A stretch of DNA of 64,000 nt, from NCBI RefSeq assembly GCF_963576615.1, contig NC_088711.1:13129869-13193868 (forward strand), in the 5' to 3' direction. Position 1 is the stretch's first letter. Each line of letters opens with the position of its first letter. Of this stretch, positions 20,320-33,967 are shown one piece after another. The stretch is from Watersipora subatra. Lineage: Eukaryota > Bryozoa > Gymnolaemata > Cheilostomatida > Watersiporidae. The translations under genes were made by a program, and so were the position numbers. The notes under the pieces are model-generated. The model had not been told where the DNA came from and did no database searches. It was given only the letters and a program-made list of their open reading frames with translations.

Positions 20320-20394
20320 TCAGGTAAGCAAGTGGATATCTCCTCGGCACAATGGGCAGGTTGGATGCCTTTCCTCCAACCACTCCGTCACACA
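20320..20394 (-). CDS. RING gene exon 9: second half of RING-H2 and stop
   Basis: Acceptor TTTTTAG before 20394. Encodes CVTEWLEERHPTCPLCRGDI then HLLT and TGA. Joined in phase 0 to exon 8 it completes C-x2-C, C-x-H-x3-H-x2-C and C-P-L-C, with the conserved Trp that helps bind E2 enzymes. It is too short to stand out as an ORF and was found by searching the minus strand for the missing CPxC. Confidence 0.93.
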   Translation of the reverse strand, partial: CVTEWLEERHPTCPLCRGDIHLLT

Positions 20395-23300
20395 CTAAAA
20401 ATAACAAGCTCAAATCATTTACATGCATATCTATAATTCTCAAATTTGGTTGTCGTCTGTCCGTTCGCATGTCCAGTTATAGCTATTAAAATCTTGGAAT
20501 GAAAATCTCACTACTTGCTGGATTTGAACTCAGGCAAGATTTAAACCACGCATTCAACTACTGAGCTATACAGTTTTTAGAATACTATCGCTACTATCAT
20601 ATATCGTATGCACACGCTAAATTACGTATTAATTAATAGATTGCGCCCACGTGTTACGATGCCCTTATTATAAAATATTTTTCGCCTTATTCTATAAAAC
20701 ACGATGCTTTTTTGTTAGGGCGAACTTTTTTCGTCACACGGTATCAACAACAATTTCTCTCGAACTTAGATTTTAGTGATTGTTGTACTAATTATGACGA
20801 AATAACAAAATGTTGATATGCTATTTTGCCGCTATCAGTGTTATCCCTTATGGTAAAAACGGATTCGCAAACAGATAAGTGATAAAATTTTAGTTAAAGG
20901 TTTGAAGTTTAATAAAATAAATACTAAGACTTCCTTTAGGTATGTGTTTAGTAAACTAAATTAATTTAAATTAGATTCAGCATTTATGTTACACGTCTGC
21001 CTCGAAAGTAAGAACTCTGCACGTAGTACATTGTAATGTTATATTTTCTTGGAGGTCATAACCACAAAATGCACCAAAGTTATTGTAGGTACCTATAGTT
21101 ACTAGGGTTAACATATTGTGTTGTTACTATTTTTTAATGATGATGATGTTTACCAGGCGGTGGTTGCATTAGATAATTACTATGGATTTCTATTCCACTC
21201 TATATACCTCTATATGGTATTTTCGCCTTATAATGCCAACATTGAAACGAACTAGAATCATATAATTGTATACCAAATAATTTTTCATTGTAATCGTAGC
21301 AAAACAGACTATATTTAGCCATTACTTGCTAATGATTTCACATTTACATTTAAATAACTTTACAGTTTTTTTTTCTAATTTATTTCAACAAAACACTTCT
21401 TTCATGATATGAAATTTAAAAGTTAGTTGTTTGAAAAAGTTTTAAAACCTTTACATTTGTTTTATTTTTTTCTTAATTCATTTCAACTGCACAAAAACAC
21501 TTTTCATGATATCAAGTTCAAAAGTTAGAATAGTAAACGTTGTTTATGTTAAATAAAAATAAATTTTTTGTCAAAAGACTTTTGTATTACCCATGTAACA
21601 TCGAGCATTCATCAAGCATATATAAATCTCAATGGTTGTCGTCATCGCTCATTGTCTGCCCAGTTAAAAGCTAACAATAAAAAATCTGTATTGTAGATGA
21701 TTTGATCTTGGTACCTCCCGGTTACGAGGCAATAAGCTAACCCATTAAGCTACATGGGATGCAATGGATTCATCGGGCAGATAGTCATTATCGGGGCTAA
21801 AATACGCATAGCAATGCGCGGCGTCACTAGAGCTTGCTCTCACGTTTTTTATTAGTAAGTTTAGTAATACGGATACTAGCTTACGCAAGTTAGCCAATGG
21901 CAACTACATTACCTGCTACTGTTTATAAACTGTTTTTTAATACCAGTGCAATGCTGGGCATTCATCTAGTCATGAATAAAAACAGGGGATGGTTGTTTTC
22001 AGCGCATAATCCTAACTAGCTTCTCCCAAATCATTTTAAATATTACATTTTGACCAGCTGCGGACATCAAATGGAAGGTTGCAATTTACTTTTACTAATG
22101 AAGCTATTACAAAATTATTTTGGTACTTGCTCTCAATAAATTAATCCGATGTACCACAAAATAAACTTTGGTGTAATTAAGGTAAGACAAAATTTATTTC
22201 ACCCCATTATTAATAATTGGGTGAAATAATATATTAATATAATATATAATAATAATAAATAATATTATTAATAACTTTAATTATGAAGTGAGTACTTTGC
22301 TTCAATTTTAAAATCTGAAGCATTTAATTCCAATGCTGAAAGCGGTTGCTGAAAACATGGCATAACCAGAAGAAAGAGAAATGAGAAGGTTGGTTCTATT
22401 ACTATTTAAACACAACATGAGAGACAAGCATTAGTAAAAAAACATATAAGTTCTCAGCAGAGCCCATCTTTGCTTAAAGTTTTTTGACAAAATCACATTT
22501 ATAAAAGGTTACTTTCTTAGCTCTATTGCTGTGTGCTAAAATTGGACTCGGCACACAGCAATTGTTGTTAAACCAGCTAATCATAACCAGTTTTATTTGT
22601 GGCTTCATTGGTATAAATTTGTTCTCTATATTGAGTAACTAAAAGATACTAAAATATCTTTTTAAAAAAATATCGAAGATCATGTTTGATATTTTATCCC
22701 TTGTCCATAGAATCCATGAATCATTACAAATACTGAATCACATCTTTACAGACAAACTGCGCATATTGGAAAGAAAGAGATAGGTATGTAAAAATACCTT
22801 CCAATGAAAAGTGTCATGGCCACACTCGAGTAGATATCGATCTGCAAATCGCAAAGTTTCCCAACAAATGACACACTCTTCAGTAGCTTCAGAAGGCTGA
22901 AACAAAGACACAAAACCAAAGTTTGTTATGTTTAATGTTAACATATTTATGTAAACATTGTCTTTAGACTCGAGCAAATGTTTTAACAAGTTTTGAATAG
23001 GATGTTTTAAAACATACCATAACCTTTTGTTTATTTCGCTTCTTTTTTCTGCTTGACGCCTTTTGCCAAGCATTTCCTTGCGGAAATGTGCTACAGGGTG
23101 ATGGAGCAACTTGCTGAGTTGTTGATTTTTGCACCACAGACTGAGTTGGCGGTTGAACAGGATGCCCCTCAACGGTTGTTTTCTGTAGATATAAGAATGA
23201 GAGTAAATATAACAAAATGCAGCTCAGTGAGAAAACTAGCAGCTTTACAGTAGTCCAACTATGTGTAAGTACATGCTGGGCGTAAAGCCATGGTACATGA

Positions 23301-26300
23301 AATCATAGTATGTGGAGTTATAGTACATGAAGTTATGGTACGTGAAGTCATGGTACGTGAAGTCATGATACGTGAAGTCATGATACGTGAAGTCATGGTA
23401 CGTGAAGTTATGGTACGTGAAGTCATGGTACGTGAAGTCATGCTATGTGGAAGTATGGTACGTAAAGTCATGGTATGTGAAGTCACGGTACGTGGAGTCA
23501 TGGTACGTGAAGCCACGGTACGCGAAGTCACGGTACGTGAAGTAATGGTATGTGAAGTCACGGTACATGAAGTCACGGTACGTAAAGGCATGGTACGTGA
23601 AGGCACGGTAAGTGAAGTCATGGTATGTGAAGTCAGGGTACCCAAAGTCATGGCAGCCGAATTCACGGTGCGTGAAGTCATGGTATTTGAAGTGCTAGGA
23701 GACTAATGAGAAGTAAAACCTATTAAAGAGTCAAGTGCATTTTGTATTGTATAGCAAGAACTCAGAATTTGAAAGTTAGGTTCTTAAATTGACCTTTGAA
23801 ACTATTTGTTAATTCTAATGTTTTTGTTGTTTTCCTGGTGGCAAACCCACCAGAAAAACAACAAAACATAAACCAGTAAATTTCTTACATTCTCACCTTG
23901 AACAAGTTGGCCCAACTGGTGGTGGGCTTTTCATCCACTGCTCTTGTTGTGATTTTACTTGAACTGGGGCCTGGATCTCTGGAAAGTACTGAAATAGGGC
24001 TGAAGGCGAGAGAACCATTTCCTGGAGTGTTGCGAGTCAGGTCAATGTTAGGAGCCAGTGGAAGACGACAATTAGGCTTCTCATGATTTAGTTTCTCAGC
24101 TCTTTCAGCCCCAGCACTCTGTGCTACACTTCTTCCCAGTTGCTGGCTACATGGTCGTGAAACATTGGCAGCAAACTGTCTTTCTAAATTACCAAGCTGT
24201 GATAGTTTGGGTCGATAAGAGGAATATGACTCTGTTGGCCAGCAAGCTCTTGCGGAGCTAGAGGTGGTTGACCCTGAAAACGATGAAGACTGACCGGCCT
24301 TGACAGAGCCAGAAGTAGTTGACTCTGAAGACAATGAGGACCGACTGACCTTGGCCCAACCAGAATCGGTCGACTCTGAAGACAATGAAGACTGACTGAC
24401 TTTGGCAGAACCAGAAATGGTTGGCCCTGCAGACGATGAGGACTGGCTAGACTGAATACAAATTGGAGTCGCCCAAGCTGATGGTACTGGTGGCTGAGTA
24501 GGCTTGACTGAAGCTTCCTTTGAAAAGATCGATGAGGTCGATGATTTTTTAACCTTCTTAGAATGAGTTGAAATGCCTGAAGATACAGGACAATGCTGAA
24601 CTGTTTCGGTTTCAAGAACGGATAACTGGCTGCCCTTCCGAGTACAAGAAGTTGAAGTAGTTGATGATATTGGTGACTTGGAGGCTTTCATAGCGCCAGA
24701 AGTTACAGGATTTGTCAACGCCAGTGACTCTTTACCCACTACAAAGGCACTAGCAGCAGAACTTGTTGATACTGATGGGTTATTGGTTTTTAAGGAATGT
24801 GAACTTATAGTGGTTGATGGCATTGATGACTTGCTAACAACGTTCAAAGAAACACGAGTAGCAGAATTTGATGTTGCGGCTGATTGACTGGATTGCACAG
24901 AGCTGAGTGTTATAGCACTTGCTGATACTGATGGCTGAGTGGCTGCAACGCTTGAAGGTTTTGACAACTTGTTTGTTGTCAAAAAGGCAGAAGGAGTCGT
25001 GCTTGATGGCGCTGCAGGAGATCTAGACTTCCGAGTACCCCGAGTTTTGACAGTTGATGATGTTGATGTTTTTAAACCTCTAGATGTTGTATTGTTTATT
25101 GATACTATTGGTTTCTCTGTTTTTTCAGTCATAGAGCTGGTTTCACCAGATGACAACACTGTGTGACTAGTTATTACAGAGCCATCTGTAGTAAGCTTGG
25201 TTAGCTTGCCAGTTTTTAGAGGAGCACAAGTAGTAATACCTGATGATGTTGTTGATGGACTAATGTTCAGAGACTCCGTAGTTGTAACACTTGCTGATAT
25301 TGATGAATGACTACTGCTTTTCAAAGAATGAGGAATTGGGGCACCTGTTGACGCTTTCATGATATCATTGTTGAGACTTGATGGCACTGGTGTGTGACTA
25401 GATGTAATAAGGCCATGTTGTGTTGTGGTACTTAGTGATTCTAGTGACCTGTTAGCCTTCACAGTGACTGGCACAGGGAGAACCGATGACGTTACTGGCA
25501 GATTGGACATCAGAGAGTCAGAAATTGTTGAACCTGATAAATATAACAATGGATCATTGATAGATGTGTAAATTGTGAGACTTGATAGATGGCTGATTTT
25601 ATATAGAAGAGTAGAAAGGAACCTGGGATGATTTAAAGCTGGGTGATTTTCATGAAAATAAAAGTTAGGCAAGGTGAGAGAGATGAAGAGTGATGGATTT
25701 TACAGAGCTGCCTTTTCTTGACCTGGAAGGAAACTTGGACATGGAAAGCTTAAATATTCAAATCGATTCATTACGCCTACATGAAAGTAGCAAAACTTGA
25801 TTTAAATTGCGCAAATCTCTCACCTTCAAAAGTGTCGATGAAGTTCAAACTTGCATCTGGCGTATGCTTTAGGAAGTCTTTGGAAAATTCTACTGGCTCT
25901 GACCCTGTAGAACAACAGCTAGCTAAGACTGACCAACAAATTGTATACGATACTCAATTAGTATGCCAGTAGAGTCTTGTTAACGAAAAATCTGGTCAAT
26001 TAAGAATCTAGGTAGATAGTTGATAGACAGACAGTTATTTCTATCAAATGAATTAGGTCTCTCTTAATGAATATGATTCCGCAGATGAACAGTTGCATCA
26101 TCTTATGCTCTCTATGAGCAGAACTTCTCTTTTTAAGGTTTTATTCAGTTTAGGCCTTATTATGCATTTGACCTTTCTGATTTAGCTTTAAATAAAAATA
26201 CTAAATAAAATAACAAATTAATAAAATTAATGTACAGAGAATTATTAAGTTCATACAAGTTGCAAAAAATCATCCGACTATTCATGAATGAGCTTATTCA

Positions 26301-29300
26301 GCCATGAAGTCCCTTCTGCACTGTATATGAACACAGGAATTAAACTTACTGGACATATTTTAGTCAAGAGCTGATGTAGAGGTAGTATATGAAATATGCA
26401 GAAATGAATATTATGGTACATAGCAGATCATTGTTGTGTTATCAAATGAAACATAAATTTGCTTAAATTGTTCATGTAATATAAGAATCTGACCTTGTTA
26501 TTAAGTTTTGTATGTAGTTTTAGCACTTACATTTATGATTTTTTTCTTTGGTCTTTACACATTTTCTGGGATTCTTAGCTAATGGTGTGTCAGGACAAAA
26601 CACTACTGATGGCCTTGCTGACGGTGTCTCACCAGTAGCTAAATGGAATGTTATGTAAATAAAGGTCATGACAGACAACTCATGAGAGAGTTTTCATCAA
26701 CTTGAGAATTAAGAAACCATCAAGTTGCTTTGCTGAGATTTGGCCAACAAAATCACATATGTTTAACTTACATTTTACTTTGGAACCAGGAGAGCTTGTA
26801 TTCTTAGTTACAACTTCTGCGTGGCAAGATGTAGCAGAGCTAGGTTGAGATTGTGGTTCTGCTGTTTGATGAAAAGCATCATGCTCTTCTTGATGAGGTC
26901 TAACATCCTCAGAAATGGTGGTCTGATCTGAAGAACTTTTTTCAGACCTGGTACATTCATCGAGTGATGGAGAGAATGCTAATTCAGGTTGTAGTGGTTG
27001 TTGTTGTGTGGTGCCCATCCTTGATGATTTGATAGTTTGCTTCAATACATCAGTGATTACTCCTTGTTGTGAGTTTACCGGACTAATGCTGTAAGGCAAA
27101 TTGTTTGGATTTGGAAACTGGTGTGGCAAACGGTAAGGTAAACTACTGTTTGGTGGTTGATATCCAACATATGGAGGGACAAGACCTATTAGAGAAGGGT
27201 GAGACAGTGATTCTCTTGGCGCATGTCCAAGAACATGTGCTGGTGAATTTGGTAATGGAACTTGAGCAGCCCCGGAAGCTGCTGACATAACACCTAAAAA
27301 AGGATTCATGGTTCCTTGGAAGAAACAACCGGCTGTTTGGTAAAAATATCCAGCTAGTTGAGGATGTCTAGCAGCTTGTAAAGGAATGCCAGATTGGGGT
27401 AATGGATTCTCAGGTGTCTTATAAGAATCTGTACATGGTAGAAGAGAATGTTTTGTTGCTACTAAGGTGTTTACAGCAGTTGGTAAATTATTCACAGCTT
27501 GTCGTACAAAAGTTCCAGGTGCTGGAAGTGTTTGACAAAATTTTGAGACATCTATATTTGAAGGTGAAGGGCTGTTATTTTTTTGAAGAGAGCTGTCGGC
27601 TACTTGGGAGAGTTTTTCAGTTTTCTTACAAAGATGGTCAGCTCCTTGAGGAGAACTCTCTAATTCACAACTTAGGCGAATATCGGTTTGTTGGAGAGGT
27701 TGAGAAGCTCTTTGATGAAAACCACTTGTTTCTTGCAAAGAATTGGTAGATTCTTGAAGAGAATTGTCGCTTTCAAGAAAATCATTAGAGTAGGCATCAA
27801 GACTACCAACTTCATGGAAATCATCAACAGAATCCTTGAGTGGTTTCTCAGTCATTTGTGAGATGCTAGCAGCGGTAGAATCAGCCTGCTTTTGAAACAG
27901 TTCATTTGTACAAGCTGAAAATCTTTTCTTCGATGACACATTTTGAAGATGGAACTTGGTGACTGAAGATGTCATTTCATTGACACTATTGCTATTTAGA
28001 TTTGATGTAGCGTTTGCCTGCTCAAAATGAGATGCGGATAATGATGTATTTTGCCCATGAATTTGAGGTTTTGGTAAGCCACTCGCTTCATTATTGTGAT
28101 CCAGTTTATTCGGGGAGACGGTAGTAGTTGTTGTTGCAGGAGAAGTTACAATCATAGAGCAACCACTTATGTCAGGAGATAGTTTATTCAAAGATTCAGT
28201 TTCTGTGGCGTTTGCACAGGATTTTGAAGCTTCTGACAAAGCCGCTGTTGGCTCCGTACTTAGTTCAAGAGGAACGAGAAGTGAGCTACAAATAGAGCTT
28301 GTCGCTTTCTCTGCATGTAAAACAGACTTTGATACAGGTAACTCATCAGGACTAATCTGTTTTGCTGAGTCACTGGCTGCCAGTGATGAAACATCCTCTA
28401 CATACTTTAAGCCTACAAACCAAAGATCATTAAGCTGGGAGTGACCATCCGTGTCATTATCATCGTCCCTACCACTATCGCTAGACTTAATGTCTTCCAT
28501 GTTTTTTGGAACTACGTGTTCTGTTTGTTCCGCAGAGAGTCTGGAAGAAAGAAGCCCATCATCATCACCTGAAGACTCTATGTCTTCCCAGCTATCAGGA
28601 ATACAGATTTCTATCTCTTCATTAGAATGTTTGGTTGAAAGACTTACATCAGCATTATCAAAATCAGACAGTGCATCATGGTAAACTTCATCCAGAGTTG
28701 AATCAGTTTCACAGTCTGAGGTAATTATTATTCTGATTGGCTCATTGTTATCAGCTGTTTGATTGCTGTGTACAGGTTCACCTTGGACGTTTGCCTGGTT
28801 AGTTTGTAAAAGAGCTTCATGAGAGACGGACTTACTGCTGGGAGGTGTGCGGTATACAGGGACAAGGTCTTCAGGAGCAGAAAATAATTGCAAATGATCT
28901 GAAGTATCATCTAGTGATCTGGCCATGCAACCTTCTTCAGAAGAAGCCGCACTTAGCAAGTGCTTGTCACGCCCAGAAGCTGAAGCACTAAACAGCATTG
29001 GTATATTTTCAGAAGCAACAAAGTGAGAAGATGCAAGATTACCCATATTTACACTGGGACTACAATTGATCAAGGTATCGTTCACCATGTTTGCAGTTGT
29101 TTTCGGAGCCTCTAGTGGCACCTCAATTGACTCCATAACATTCAATGAATCCAAATCACTTTTGTCTAGAGATGGACAAGACTGAACCGAGCTGCTTACA
29201 GACAGAACTGAAGTTTCTTCTAGCTTCTTAGTAGTAAACACAGATGACTGTTCATTCTCCTTTGGCGAATTATTGAATTCTACAAGACGCAAATTCAAAC

Positions 29301-32300
29301 GTGACCAGTTGATATATATATACCTGATAAAAGAATGTATAACCATTACAGGCTTAAAACATTGTAACGTGTTGAAGTAGCCAATCTTATTAGCTATCAT
29401 GGAATAGAAGTATTTCTACTTAAGCAATAGGGATATCATTAGCCTATAGTTTCCATCCTCCAAAACATGGAGATCATGCTTTAATGATTGAATGAACAAC
29501 TGTAAACACCAAGTGTGTACCAATATTCAAAAAGGCAGGAGCTATCTATACATATATATAGGTATACATATCTATATCTACAATATATTTCTCAAAGTGT
29601 GTGTTTGTGTATGTCCAGCTATAGCTTTTAAAAGCTTAGAGTGAAAAACCCGTCTTGCAGAAGATTTGATCTCGGACCCTCCAATTCACCAGTCTAATCC
29701 CTTACCAATTATGGATGCTTTAGCGATATATGTTGTTATATGGGTGCAAATATGCTACCGCTCTCCATTACGGCGTAACGTCATGGTGCAACATCATAGA
29801 GAGCGGTAGCATAATTTTATGTGTGGTTCAATCGTGAGAGCAAGTAGTTAGCTCTTATTAGTAAGCTTACTCAAATTAGCCATTGGCAATATGCCAGGCT
29901 AATAACAAGTGGCAGGCAACTACATTACCTCTCATTGTTTGTAATCTGGTTTTTGATATCCGTGCCACGCCAGGCATCCAGCTAGTATAAATATAAATTT
30001 CAGTGTTTGTTTGTTTGTTTGCCATTTGTGTGTCCAATTATAGTGATAAAGTTATAGGAGCGAAAAATCTGCTTCACATTGAATTTGAACTCGGAACGTC
30101 TAATTCTGCAAACAGGCGTACTATTCATTACACTTGGCGTTCAACTACTTATACTTTGAATTATTTGTGCACATCATACTTATTACACCTGCCAATCTTT
30201 AATGTCAATTGGTTAAAGTAACACGGTTCACGCAACATCTAGTACGCTTAAAGATCATGATTGCATGAGAGACCATAATGCAATCTTTTTTCCTAGCACT
30301 GGCTTCAGAGGGATGGGCAGGACTCACATTATAGTGAAGATTTAGACTAGCTTAAGTTACTCGAATACATTGGGTAAAGAAACTTAGCCAATTAAAGAAT
30401 AAATTTTCTATGTACAAACTTTTTATATTGCCCATGCAACGCTGGGTATTCACCTAGTATACAGTATGTATAAATCTCTGTGTTTTTTTTGTCTGTCATT
30501 CGTGTGTACAGTTACAGTGATGAAGTTATAGGAACAGAAAATCTGTTTCGCACTGGAATTGAACTCAGTACCTCCAGTGTCAGTTGAAGTACCTACATTC
30601 AGTTGAAGCGTACTATCCATTCCACTACACGTCCAACTGGCAATACTATGGGTTAATTGTGCACATACTTATTACACCAGTTAAAATATGTACACTTAAA
30701 GCGCTTGCAAAAATACTAGCATGCTTGAAGATCATGACTTGTAAGTAATGATTATATGCACAATTATAAGCACTGATCTTACTATATTAAATATTTAGAT
30801 TAGGTTAATTTACTAGCTTAAGTTACTCAAATTCATTGGGTAAAGAAACCTAGCCAATAGCAACTAAATTAATTGCCACTGTTTATAAGCTGACTTCTTT
30901 ATTACTTGTGCAACGCCAGATATTCAGTAGTATATGTATGTATACATGTATGTATAGCCGAAAACAAGCAGTCGAAACAGTGATCAGGTCAATGTTGAGT
31001 TGTGAAGGTTAAACAATACAGGTGTAGGATGAGTCAAGGTTATGAACTACAGATGGTGTGAACAGTAAATAGTAGGATTCGTCAACACTTCACTCAATAT
31101 TCAAGTTAGATCACCTTTCCACTTCTAATAAAGTTACGCAATTCTCTACTCATTATTGAGTTACCCTAACTCTCTGTTTGTGATACATCGAGTAGCATTA
31201 ATATTACACTTGTGATATATAAAGTTACAGTACCTTTCTGCTCATCTGACAAGACCTTGCCTTCCGTATCGAGCATTCGTTGATTGAGGAGATCCTTGAT
31301 ATACTGCTCAACAGAGCTGATGGAGACATCTTTGTCTACAAGTGGCAAGTCTTCAGCCGGCACTCCTGACCTCAGAAGATGAACATTGGCTTTGAATACT
31401 TCCTACAAGGTGTGCTAAGTCATTACCACTCTGACTTGGATCATAACTTTTCAGAAAATAAACAGAGCCAAGCCTATCTTAAAACTATAATCCATGATTG
31501 GGAGAGCTACTAGCTAAACTTGTGCTAAGTGTGTGGAAAATGCTGAAGACTGGAGCCTTTCTCAATAACAAACAGAATTATCTGATAATATCACCTGATA
31601 TTTTATGAGCTCCAATCAGAGACAACTTATTAGAACTAGGAAGTGTGAAAAGTGGGAAAGATAGGCGAAAGGAGAGGAATATGAGAAGTAAACTTTATGA
31701 GTTGCATAAAACCAAAAGCTCAATTAGATTAACATAACTCTATTATATGTAGTCATGTGACCAACTGAATCTGCTGAAAATCCCCAAGGAATGCTTTGGC
31801 AAGTTCCAATCACACATTAGTGTTACAAGCTGCAGAGACGATGGAAGAAAGTGTGAGGGTGACCAAGTCTACAGAATAGTTATAAGGCAGACAACTTCGC
31901 TTAAATCAACAACGGTTCGCTAGCGTAACATTGTACAACAGTTTGACACACTTGTATGACTATTTGGTATACTTGTACGAATGTTTGGCACACTTGTATG
32001 ACTATTTGGCGCATTTGTATGACTATTTGGTATACTTGTACGAATGTTTGGCACACTTGTGTGACTATTTGGCGCATTTTTACGAATGTTTGACACACTT
32101 GTACGACTATTTGGCACATTTGTATGACTATTTGGTATACTCGTACGAATGTTTGGCGCACTTGTATGACTATTTGGTATACTTGTACGAATGTTTGGCA
32201 CACTTGTATGACTATTTGGCGCATTTGTATGACTATTTGGTATACTTGTACGAATGTTTGGCACACTTGTATGACTATTTGGCGCATTTTTACGAATGTT

Positions 32301-33967
32301 TGACACACTTGTACGACTATTTGGCACATTTGTATGACTATTTGGTATACTCGTACGAATGTTTGGCACATTTGTAGGACTGTTTGACACACTTCTACAT
32401 AAACAGTAATGTAGACCAATAACGTTGTCAAAGTATTGCCGTCATGGTTATGCTGCAGACTATCTACTTGGCTAAATAAAGCCTTTTACGGTCAGTGCAA
32501 TGCATTGTTACTGCATTGTTTTTGTAATCTAAGGTCTTCTTAGAACTTTGATCAAGGTAACTAAACAACTGACACAAAACGAATTATATTATTAATATAA
32601 TCACAGGTATGTTGTTATTTCACTGATGTCTATGAATATGTATTCTCAGATAATTAAATTTATTGTGTGCCGCTGTCTATCGGTGCATGAAATATTATTA
32701 TGCTATTACAATAGATCCAAAATCAGCAAAATTTAATATTAATTGAATTTTTGTTTTGCTTCTGTAAAACCTACTTATAGCTATAATACAAAAACAGCAC
32801 ATAAAAAATCAATTTTTCACTAGAAATCCGTAGATGAAGTGTTGCATCGGCAGCAGTGAAAGTGCGTAGTGGTCAGAAAATCAACAGCCTATCATTCAAA
32901 GGTCAAACGAAGAGTAACAAATTTACAATTAGTTTTAGTATAAATTCATGCATAAAGAAGTTATTATCATATAAAGTGGTTGAAATTCTCAAGTTACTTT
33001 TCAAGCCAAACCTCTTTTAACAAGTACATCCACAGATGCATTTGAATGCGAATCTGCAAAGTTAACTAGCTTACCATAGAACTATCTGTTTTACGAGCAG
33101 CCTTACTCACAATTATGAGTTGAAGGATATGTTTATGTAAAGGCTTGTATCTAAGCGAGAATGGGAGTGATACAATATATTGAAGAAATACATATGGTAG
33201 ATTACATATTATTAATCTAGACCTGAGACTGCTGTAATTCTTGACTGCACTTTTCTTTTATAGCAGCCATCTTTGCTCCAATCATCAAGAACAGTCGTTG
33301 ATGTTGATGCTGGCTTGCAGGAACACTGTTCAAGACCTCACTTGAGTCATATGACACACTTGTGAGCTTACAGTGTAAGCGTTCTAGACAGACGGCCTGG
33401 TAGAGGGTCTACAAGAAATAAGTAAATGTTTTGTGTCATTTTTTAAAAGCTATATCCATTAAAGATTATAATTTATGACAGCTACATATGCCCTGATATA
33501 AGTGAAGTTGACTTACCTATGCTCTGGTATAAGTAAGGTTGACTTACCTATGCTCTGATATAAGTAAAGGTTGATTTACCTATGCCCTGATATAAGTACA
33601 GGTTGACTTAACTATGCTCTGATACAAGTAAGGTTGACTTACCTATGCCCTGATATAAGTAACGGTTGACTTACCTATGCTCTGATATAAGTAAGGTTGA
33701 CTTACCTATGCCCTGATATAAGTAAAGGTTGACTTACCTATGCTCCGATATAAGTAAAGGTTGACTTACCTATGCCTTGATATAAGTAAAGTTGATTTGC
33801 CTATGCTCTGATCTACATGTAAGTAAGATGATTTACCTATGGTTTAGTATAAGTAAGGTTGACTTACTTATGCTCTGATATATATAAGGTTGACTTACCC
33901 ATGCTCTGATAGCTTCTGAGCGAAAGTGAATAATAAGGCTGTCTTTCCAGTCATCTAAGGCAGCCAT
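20320..33967 (-). CDS. Ser/Thr-rich RING-H2 protein (putative E3 ubiquitin ligase), 9-exon gene
   Basis: Exons in transcript order: 33967-33899, 33408-33223, 31402-31234, 29279-26772, 26638-26531, 25533-23897, 23182-23024, 22896-22798, 20394-20320. They total 5010 nt (1669 residues plus stop) with phases agreeing throughout. The start MAALDDWKDSLIIHFR is the first Met in the exon. Residues 1-141 match the N terminus of the neighbouring CCCH/RING gene. Residues 142-1559 are low-complexity Ser/Thr/Pro sequence with acidic patches and no recognised fold. Residues 1560-1612 end in a basic cluster (SSRKKKRNKQK). Residues 1620-1661 are a RING-H2: CVIC, then ECGHDTFHWKC, then CPLC. RING-H2 domains recruit E2 enzymes, so ubiquitin ligase activity is the family expectation; substrate unknown. 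The protein ends eight residues after the last RING Cys. I do not recognise the orthologue; TTC3/DZIP3-type ligases also have C-terminal RING-H2 domains but differ here. Confidence 0.88.
20400..20600 (-). mobile_element. tRNA-derived SINE fragment (intron 8 of the RING gene)
   Basis: On the minus strand: TATAGCTCAGTAGTTGAATG (A-box region) and GAGTTCAAATCC (B-box) with tRNA-like spacing, followed by the family's GTCTGTCCAGTTATAGC-like body. Confidence 0.75.
20600..22797. other. Intron 8 of the RING gene: AT-rich, mostly unassigned
   Basis: Apart from SINE sequence (about 21610-21978) and short palindromes at 22195-22230 and 22527-22562, I see only AT-rich DNA with no coding signal. Confidence 0.5.
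21610..21978 (-). mobile_element. tRNA-derived SINE-like element
   Basis: Minus-strand tRNA-like head near 21695-21755 (GTAGCTTAATGGGTTAGC and a degenerate B-box). The far end carries GTGCAATGCTGGGCATTCAT before CTAGT, a terminal motif also present near 29970, 30440, 30920 and 40510. Confidence 0.65.
22798..22896 (-). CDS. RING gene exon 8: first half of RING-H2
   Basis: Encodes PSEATEECVICWETLRFADR followed by YLLECGHDTFHWK. It supplies C1, C2, C3 and the two His ligands. Donor GGAAG/GTATTT in phase 0; the remaining ligands are in exon 9, 2.4 kb away. Confidence 0.92.
23024..23182 (-). CDS. RING gene exon 7, linker before the RING
   Basis: 53 residues, phase 0 both sides; acceptor ATCTACAG, donor CAAAAG/GTTATG. 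Begins KTTVEGHPVQPPTQSVVQ and ends with the basic run ASSRKKKRNKQK, a plausible nuclear localisation signal. Confidence 0.85.
23282..23700. repeat. 15-bp minisatellite, about 28 copies (RING gene intron 6)
   Basis: Unit GGTACGTGAAGTCAT with scattered variants. A multiple of three, it leaves frames open on both strands; these ORFs are products of the repeat. Confidence 0.95.
23822..23867. other. Long hairpin 30 nt downstream of RING gene exon 6
   Basis: TTTTGTTGTTTTCCTGGTGG pairs with CCACCAGAAAAACAACAAAA across a loop of about five bases, with one mismatch. It lies in the intron just inside the 5' splice site of the 1.6-kb exon. Confidence 0.75.
23897..25533 (-). CDS. RING gene exon 6: 545-residue Ser/Thr-rich region
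   Basis: Acceptor TATTTATCAG before 25533; donor TTCAAG/GTGAGA after 23897. More than a third Ser/Thr, with short internal repeats (SQSSLSSESTTSGSAK-type units at about 24240-24440) and basic clusters such as KTRGTRKSRSP. Probably intrinsically disordered and heavily phosphorylatable. No domain recognised. Confidence 0.87.
26531..26638 (-). CDS. RING gene exon 5 (small)
   Basis: Phase 1 to phase 1, 108 nt, encoding about 36 residues with TGETPSARPSVVFCPDTP and a basic end (RKCVKTKEKNHK). Bounded by CATTTAG on the 5' side and AAAT/GTAAGTGC on the 3' side. Being symmetric, it could be a cassette exon. Confidence 0.75.
26772..29279 (-). CDS. RING gene exon 4: 836-residue Ser-rich disordered region
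   Basis: Acceptor CTTGTAG before 29279 and donor AAAT/GTAAGT after 26772, phase 1 on both sides. Early part acidic and Ser/Asp/Glu-rich (SDCETDS, SSGDDDG, SGRDDDNDTDG); later part Gln-, Pro- and Ser-rich. No known domain or membrane segment is visible. The whole insert is open, which for 2.5 kb argues strongly for coding function. No counterpart exists in the neighbouring paralogue. Confidence 0.88.
29545..30935 (-). mobile_element. Cluster of three tRNA-derived SINE-like elements (5' intron of RING gene exon 4)
   Basis: tRNA-like heads on the minus strand near 29655-29720, 30075-30150 and 30540-30635, each beside a GTCCARTTATAGTGATAAAG-like body. Terminal motif CAACGCYGGGYATYCA near 29960-29985, 30430-30460 and 30905-30930. 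Head-to-tail arrangement suggests serial insertion into one another's A/T-rich ends. Confidence 0.7.
29751..29813. other. Perfect 15-bp inverted repeat
   Basis: TATGCTACCGCTCTC at 29751-29765 and its exact complement at 29799-29813, 33-nt loop, within a SINE-like element. Confidence 0.85.
31930..32395. repeat. 21-bp satellite with 210-bp higher-order repeat (RING gene intron 2)
   Basis: Units alternate between CACTTGTATGACTATTTGGY and TACTTGTACGAATGTTTGGC types. Ten-unit blocks repeat almost exactly twice. Three frames stay open because 21 is a multiple of 3. Confidence 0.92.
33485..33912. repeat. Roughly 32-bp array copying the 5' splice site of RING gene exon 1
   Basis: Minus-strand unit: ATCAGAGCATAGGTAAGTCA then ACCTTTACTTAT. 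The final unit (33898-33910) is the real exon end ATCAGAGCATGG/GTAAGTCAACC. About 12 further copies fill the start of intron 1, most with a perfect AG/GTAAGT. Confidence 0.93.
33899..33967 (-). CDS. RING gene exon 1 (23 residues, start codon)
   Basis: MAALDDWKDSLIIHFRSEAI then RAW, ending exactly at TGG/GTAAGT. The block W-K-D-x-x-I-x-F-x-x-E-x-I-x-A-W is shared with exon 1 of the CCCH/RING gene (63506-63676), and both exons end after Trp in phase 0. The 3' end of this exon is the last unit of a tandem array (see 33485-33912). Confidence 0.85.

Follow-up and report, generated by a model that had tools for sequence, protein, structure and literature searches.

A minisatellite spanning the first 5' splice site of a RING-H2 gene in the bryozoan Watersipora subatra

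Donor-spanning minisatellites in human genes and in a bryozoan

Minisatellites that span a 5' splice site (donor) are known from a few human genes, some of which are linked to disease or to enzyme level. This work concerns a 31-bp minisatellite at the exon 1/intron 1 junction of a RING-H2 gene of Watersipora subatra, located in a 64-kb stretch of genomic DNA (contig NC_088711.1, positions 13,129,869 to 13,193,868; the window). The array holds the 5' splice site used by the NCBI protein model, and its downstream units carry donor-like sites, with the GT kept in 10 of 12 full copies. The bryozoan array is a donor-spanning minisatellite, an arrangement already known from human IFI6, CBS, and ABCA7. 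The unit in IFI6 is reportedly shorter (12 bp), and the variable number tandem repeat (VNTR) in CBS is said to affect splicing. The bryozoan array is probably a tolerated, near-neutral minisatellite in a gene that mostly uses the first donor. As a non-vertebrate case in a minisatellite-rich genome, it would offer a natural test of donor choice among a dozen near-identical copies and of whether RNA folding or position decides that choice.

The VNTR in intron 18 of human ABCA7 has a 25-bp unit, with the exon 18 donor forming the first two bases of the repeat, and is known in 12 to 427 copies. Similar to the bryozoan gene, the ABCA7 repeat starts at the donor of the exon itself; one unit on lies a cryptic donor, whose use retains one unit and leads to an early stop. 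The two frameshifting events in ABCA7 are reported at 14 +/- 6 and 2 +/- 1% "respectively", and the value of 2% is read here as one-unit retention. Neither event was affected by VNTR size, while skipping of exon 19 rose with size, and a block of translation (hence of decay) raised the frameshifted transcripts. In the same study, overall expression fell with VNTR length, which its authors blame on causes other than the frameshifted transcripts. ABCA7 differs in that length changed splicing via skipping of the next exon and not via use of the decoy.

The minisatellite in human IFI6 (6-16, G1P3) provides multiple splice donors, with two downstream repeat units serving as donors according to a citing paper. 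The IFI6 isoforms are described there as encoding protein, in contrast to the bryozoan gene, where every decoy gives an early stop. The human CBS c.1444_1467+7 VNTR (16–21 copies) shares with the bryozoan array a 31-bp unit spanning the exon-intron junction, but that unit is mostly exonic (24 exonic and 7 intronic bases). The tandem repeats of UBC and VCX3A contain dual-specific splice sites, and AG/GT (the slash marks the exon-intron border) has been amplified there together with the repeat. In those genes, the intron measures a whole number of repeats. Bryozoan intron 1 is not built of whole repeats from end to end, as its acceptor (31403) lies outside the array. CeRep25B of Caenorhabditis elegans is a near-palindromic, mostly intronic minisatellite associated with alternative splicing; it differs in its 24-base unit and its clusters on two chromosomes, and is not described as carrying the donor. 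Among the matches listed in a literature search for bryozoan minisatellites at splice sites, one bryozoan item was found, which deals with mitochondrial introns.

The array at the exon 1/intron 1 junction

The minus-strand gene corresponds, residue for residue, to an NCBI W. subatra protein (P0001) named "serine-rich adhesin for platelets-like". Its coding span (20320..33967, minus strand) comprises eight coding exons deduced from P0001, with 1576 of the 1600 residues within seven exons and the last 24 in exon 20394-20320. The protein ends in a C-terminal RING-H2 finger (PF13639, 40.7 bits versus a cut-off of 27.3), and the label "RING gene" given in the first-pass annotation is therefore correct; the finger is hidden behind the database name of P0001. 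The coding part of exon 1 (33899..33967, minus strand; MAALDDWKDSLIIHFRSEAIRAW) is identical to the start of P0001 and ends in phase 0. The 5' splice site that follows (33893..33898, minus strand) reads TGG/GTAAGT, with the donor G at 33898 as stated earlier. P0001 reads RAW/EVF across the junction into exon 2 (31234..31402, minus strand; EVFKANVHLL...), as placed by the NCBI protein model, and intron 1 is 2,496 nt in length. The P0001 gene model splices from 33898, and the single protein record found shows the first donor only.

Tandem Repeats Finder (TRF) detects an array at 33483-33911 on the minus strand with a period of 31, 13.5 copies, and 84% matches, which confirms the earlier report of an array of donor copies beside exon 1. 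Together with an alignment of the units, this shows that the minisatellite begins 13 nt before the end of exon 1, takes in the donor, and extends ~415 nt into intron 1. The unit had been described as the donor plus ten exon bases; the donor is indeed included, while the exonic portion is 13 bases (TATCAGAGCATGG). The junction itself, TATCAGAGCATGG/GTAAGTCAACC, is the first array unit and departs from the unit consensus at 3 of 31 positions in an ungapped comparison; the consensus has TAG where the real exon has TGG (tryptophan). Outside the array, the best match to the unit consensus on either strand of the window has 11 mismatches. The window contains nine copies of AGGTAAGT, of which seven lie in the array on its minus strand, compared with a mean of 2.59 in dinucleotide shuffles, none of which (0/100) reached nine. 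Outside the array, AGGTAAGT and TGAATGGA are equally rare, with two copies each.

Following the junction unit, there are 12 full copies and one partial copy inside intron 1. Successive donor copies are spaced by 31-32 bp with a single exception of 36, and not by 31-33 as had been stated. Seven of the 12 full copies read AG/GTAAGT (GT at 33769, 33737, 33705, 33674, 33642, 33547, and 33516) and occupy 33511..33771 on the minus strand, a stretch interrupted by the degraded copies at 33611 and 33579. The remaining copies with GT are AA/GTAAGT at 33867 and AG/GTAAAT at 33836 and 33579, while GC (33800) and TT (33611) replace the GT in two copies; the final partial copy, at 33484, reads GTAGCT. A match with eight mismatches at 33947, within exon 1 and without GT, was dropped from the count. 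The three copies closest to the real donor (hexamers within 33795..33867, minus strand), namely those at 33867, 33836, and 33800 (AG/GCAAAT), are all degraded and are weaker donors, as scored with a frequency table. Given that 5 of the 12 copies are degraded, the chance that the nearest three are all degraded is 0.045 under random placement, or 0.070 when the partial copy is included. The columns of the donor core show no significant extra conservation compared with the rest of the unit (0.78 versus 1.14 changes per column; 13 units, insertion columns excluded), a value as low being obtained in 5546 of 20000 shuffles. Consequently, selection on the donor columns was set aside.

The proposal that the array was amplified from exon 1 is plausible, and the minisatellite may well have started where exon 1 meets intron 1. 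When relatives of the protein were sought with three parts of it, only the gene itself was matched (one match each; E <= 1, 10, and 0.01; 299, 34, and 1271 candidates), and since this search needs shared five-residue words, distant relatives might be missed.

Consequences of decoy use and accessibility of the donors

The outcome of decoy use was predicted by extending exon 1 to each site, joining it either to exon 2 of P0001 or to the candidate exon that begins at 33408, and translating the products. Thirteen later sites were tested, namely the partial copy and all 12 full copies, the two that lack GT among them; three of these (33800, 33611, and 33484) are not credible donors. With either acceptor, all 13 products reach a stop after 44-53 codons, in agreement with the prediction that use of decoys would switch the protein off, which is the strongest part of the idea put forward in the first-pass annotation. 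The frame shift invoked there as the cause decides the outcome, through unit length, for only the two nearest of the 13 sites. The other 11 all terminate, whatever the length, at one in-frame TAA of the third unit (codon 45; 33833..33835, minus strand), and this codon stops every read-through product past the second decoy. Frame shift was set aside as the main consequence, as the in-frame stop comes earlier for these 11 sites. Because the stop sits in the third unit, a longer array gives the same decoy product; it could alter only the frequency of decoy products, not their nature.

Length dependence is the weakest part of the same idea, according to which the decoys would act as a brake: they would compete for U1, and longer arrays would divert more transcripts to stop-containing mRNA and lower the level of the RING protein. 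For U1 pairing alone, the seven perfect decoys and the real donor are about equal (-10.5 versus -10.3 kcal/mol), which favors a brake, as do the early stops at all 13 later sites. The same is true of the drop in ABCA7 expression with VNTR lengthening and of the 31-bp CBS repeat across an exon-intron junction, which a cited title ties to reduced activity. However, folding reverses the ranking of the donors in most windows, and extra units would leave the product unchanged. The constancy of ABCA7 unit retention across lengths, with other causes given by the authors for the lower expression, speaks against length dependence. Length dependence is unsupported for the bryozoan array, and the brake is considered unlikely.

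Most units contain a CTTAC-like arm 3' of the GTAAG, at a distance that leaves a 5- to 6-base loop. The GT of an intact decoy can therefore be enclosed in a hairpin of up to 9 bp. In the example of the perfect decoy at 33705 (33687..33709, minus strand), the arms ATAGGTAAG and CTTACTTAT enclose a 5-base loop and form a 9-bp hairpin with a predicted energy of -7.2 kcal/mol. A hairpin as strong as that of the consensus was obtained with 78 of 20000 random tails of window composition and with 128 of 20000 shuffled tails. The predicted energy for opening the nine donor bases is 3.3-4.2 kcal/mol for the real site and 5.2-8.1 kcal/mol for the seven perfect decoys across five overlapping folding windows. 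When U1 pairing and opening are combined, the real donor has the most favorable net energy of 13 sites (itself and the 12 full copies) in all five windows at 37 C and in four of five at 15 C. The earlier statement that the copies are closer to the donor consensus than the real site holds for 7 of 12 full copies, but with predicted folding taken into account a better consensus does not imply a stronger site. In local-accessibility runs with a window of 150 or 300 bases, the real donor was likewise at least as open as each of the seven perfect decoys.

On balance, a tolerated passenger is the most probable reading. Tandem growth would have carried copies of the donor ~415 bases into intron 1, while the original donor would still take most splicing and use of the decoys would be low. 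The original donor would be favored because it is transcribed first, its three adjacent copies are poor, and the good copies are predicted to be held in hairpins of their own units. Transcripts spliced now and then from a decoy would reach a stop near codon 45-54 and should be cleared by nonsense-mediated decay, and the array would be a mildly costly or neutral passenger.

Several observations weigh against this interpretation. At 15 C the real donor is second in one of the five windows, and being the most open of nine GTAAGT sites is a 1-in-9 event, which is statistically weak given that the windows overlap. The folding argument was, moreover, found by looking. The degraded copy at 33836 and the real donor are opened about equally easily, and the copy at 33867 is more open in local accessibility with windows of 80 and 150 bases. 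With the 80-base window, three of the seven perfect decoys (33705, 33674, and 33642) are also more open than the real donor, a disagreement that may arise because averaged windows cut off the pairing arm. The seven other donors of the exon model (of which 26530 is absent from P0001) have opening energies of 1.3-7.6 kcal/mol with 60-base flanks, so masking by 5-8 kcal/mol is not decisive for use. Folding of the whole unit is ordinary compared with shuffled tandem units (z of -0.9 and -1.0), and of 20 arrays tested, at least two others (23281 and 49522) show more unusual folding on at least one strand. The decay of the hairpin arm in the first copy could be explained by its position at the edge alone. 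In addition, a "proximal" rule for competing donors would favor the downstream copies.

The NCBI gene model behind the junction is itself a prediction. If the gene or its exon 1 were mis-modelled, the junction would be no real splice site and the array would be an ordinary intergenic or untranslated-region minisatellite, a reading in line with the failure of three parts of the protein to find relatives. Against it, the exons are phase-consistent with GT donors and AG acceptors, the RING-H2 finger exceeds the Pfam cut-off, and RNA-seq was produced for the species (specimen tzWatSuba4, BioProject PRJEB62167); such a mis-model is improbable. The assembly represents one haplotype, and contigs of the second haplotype have been deposited.

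Two further readings assign the copies a role of their own. As a landing platform, the copies would bind U1 without splicing and thereby shield the growing transcript from premature polyadenylation or boost transcription. Within 400 nt of the first donor there are seven perfect sense-strand U1 sites, and suppression of polyadenylation by U1 is an established process. Intron 1 holds only one AATAAA and one ATTAAA (32664 and 32737), about 750-820 nt past the last copy, and the U1 sites are predicted to be masked by folding; together with donor columns that lack significant extra conservation, this makes a landing platform very improbable. Dual-specific or recursive splicing, in which AG/GT of the unit would act as an acceptor and then as a donor so that the intron is removed stepwise to give the normal product, is regarded as more improbable again. 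Dual-specific sites within tandem repeats have been described, and the AG/GT core is present in 9 of 12 full downstream copies. The real acceptor, however, is outside the array, and the pyrimidine fraction before AG is 0.38-0.62 in the 12 copies compared with 0.62-0.81 in six acceptors of the gene, although these ranges touch. To our knowledge, steps of one 31-nt unit are too short for known introns.

Donor arrays elsewhere and other features of the gene

The position of a splice site inside an array is by itself unremarkable, as arrays cover 13.6% of the window (59 TRF rows, merged by hand into 32 stretches). One of the 14 splice sites of the P0001 gene model, the exon 1 donor, falls in an array. 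Across the genome (783,720,542 bases in 239 contigs), three AGGTAAGT spaced 18-48 bp were matched 3796 times (2057 + 1739) compared with 295 times (157 + 138) for the reversed pattern; this is a 13-fold difference in raw counts, with overlapping matches inside arrays and no normalisation for single-site frequency or array number. The excess, though not normalised, is compatible with tandem duplication seeded preferentially at 5' splice sites, which would yield many natural donor arrays, each tolerated via its own masking hairpin; this generalization is held to be decidedly improbable. If the excess survives normalisation, it would bear on where minisatellites are born.

Three arrays among the matches listed were examined. 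The first (L032; minus strand, about G000:C1:1754377-1754796) has 12.4 copies of a 34-bp unit, CACCTCTACAG/GTAAGTGGATG..., in which an acceptor-like stretch is fused to a donor. It begins at the end of a 67-residue open frame that has no Pfam match; this may be another array at an exon edge or a coincidence. The second (L033; minus strand, about G000:C1:3480571-3483876) has 118 copies of a 28-bp unit with CAG/GTAAGT at 96% matches; its cluster holds 117 AGGTAAGT, and no exon is evident at its edges. Of the three, one starts at the end of an open frame and two are without an evident edge exon. Donor-bearing arrays are therefore not unique to the RING-H2 gene, and two of the three examined are not at a visible junction.

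Intron 1 also contains a candidate extra exon (33223..33408, minus strand) of 62 open codons, with phase 0 at both ends, that is absent from P0001. Its acceptor is pyrimidine-rich and its donor, GTCTAG, looks weak; it is a possible alternative exon. The Pfam matches of a 141-residue first model that included this exon were all below the cut-off. A second in-frame candidate exon (26531-26638; 108 nt, GTAAGT donor) is likewise absent from P0001. Both candidates (33408-33223 and 26638-26531) and an alternative end of the exon at 23182 were set aside, since P0001 is without them.

Introns of the RING-H2 gene contain similar short stretches with a tRNA-like motif, identified by eye at about 30660-30530, 30160-30060, 29710-29640, and 21760-21690, which are perhaps an old short interspersed element (SINE); ARAGORN finds no tRNA genes in the window. 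A second minisatellite within intron 1, at 31931-32398, has periods of 42, 63, and 105 bp and lies closer to the 3' end of the intron. Finally, a coding exon of the gene holds 3.6 copies of a 51-bp repeat (24260-24445), whose period is a multiple of three.

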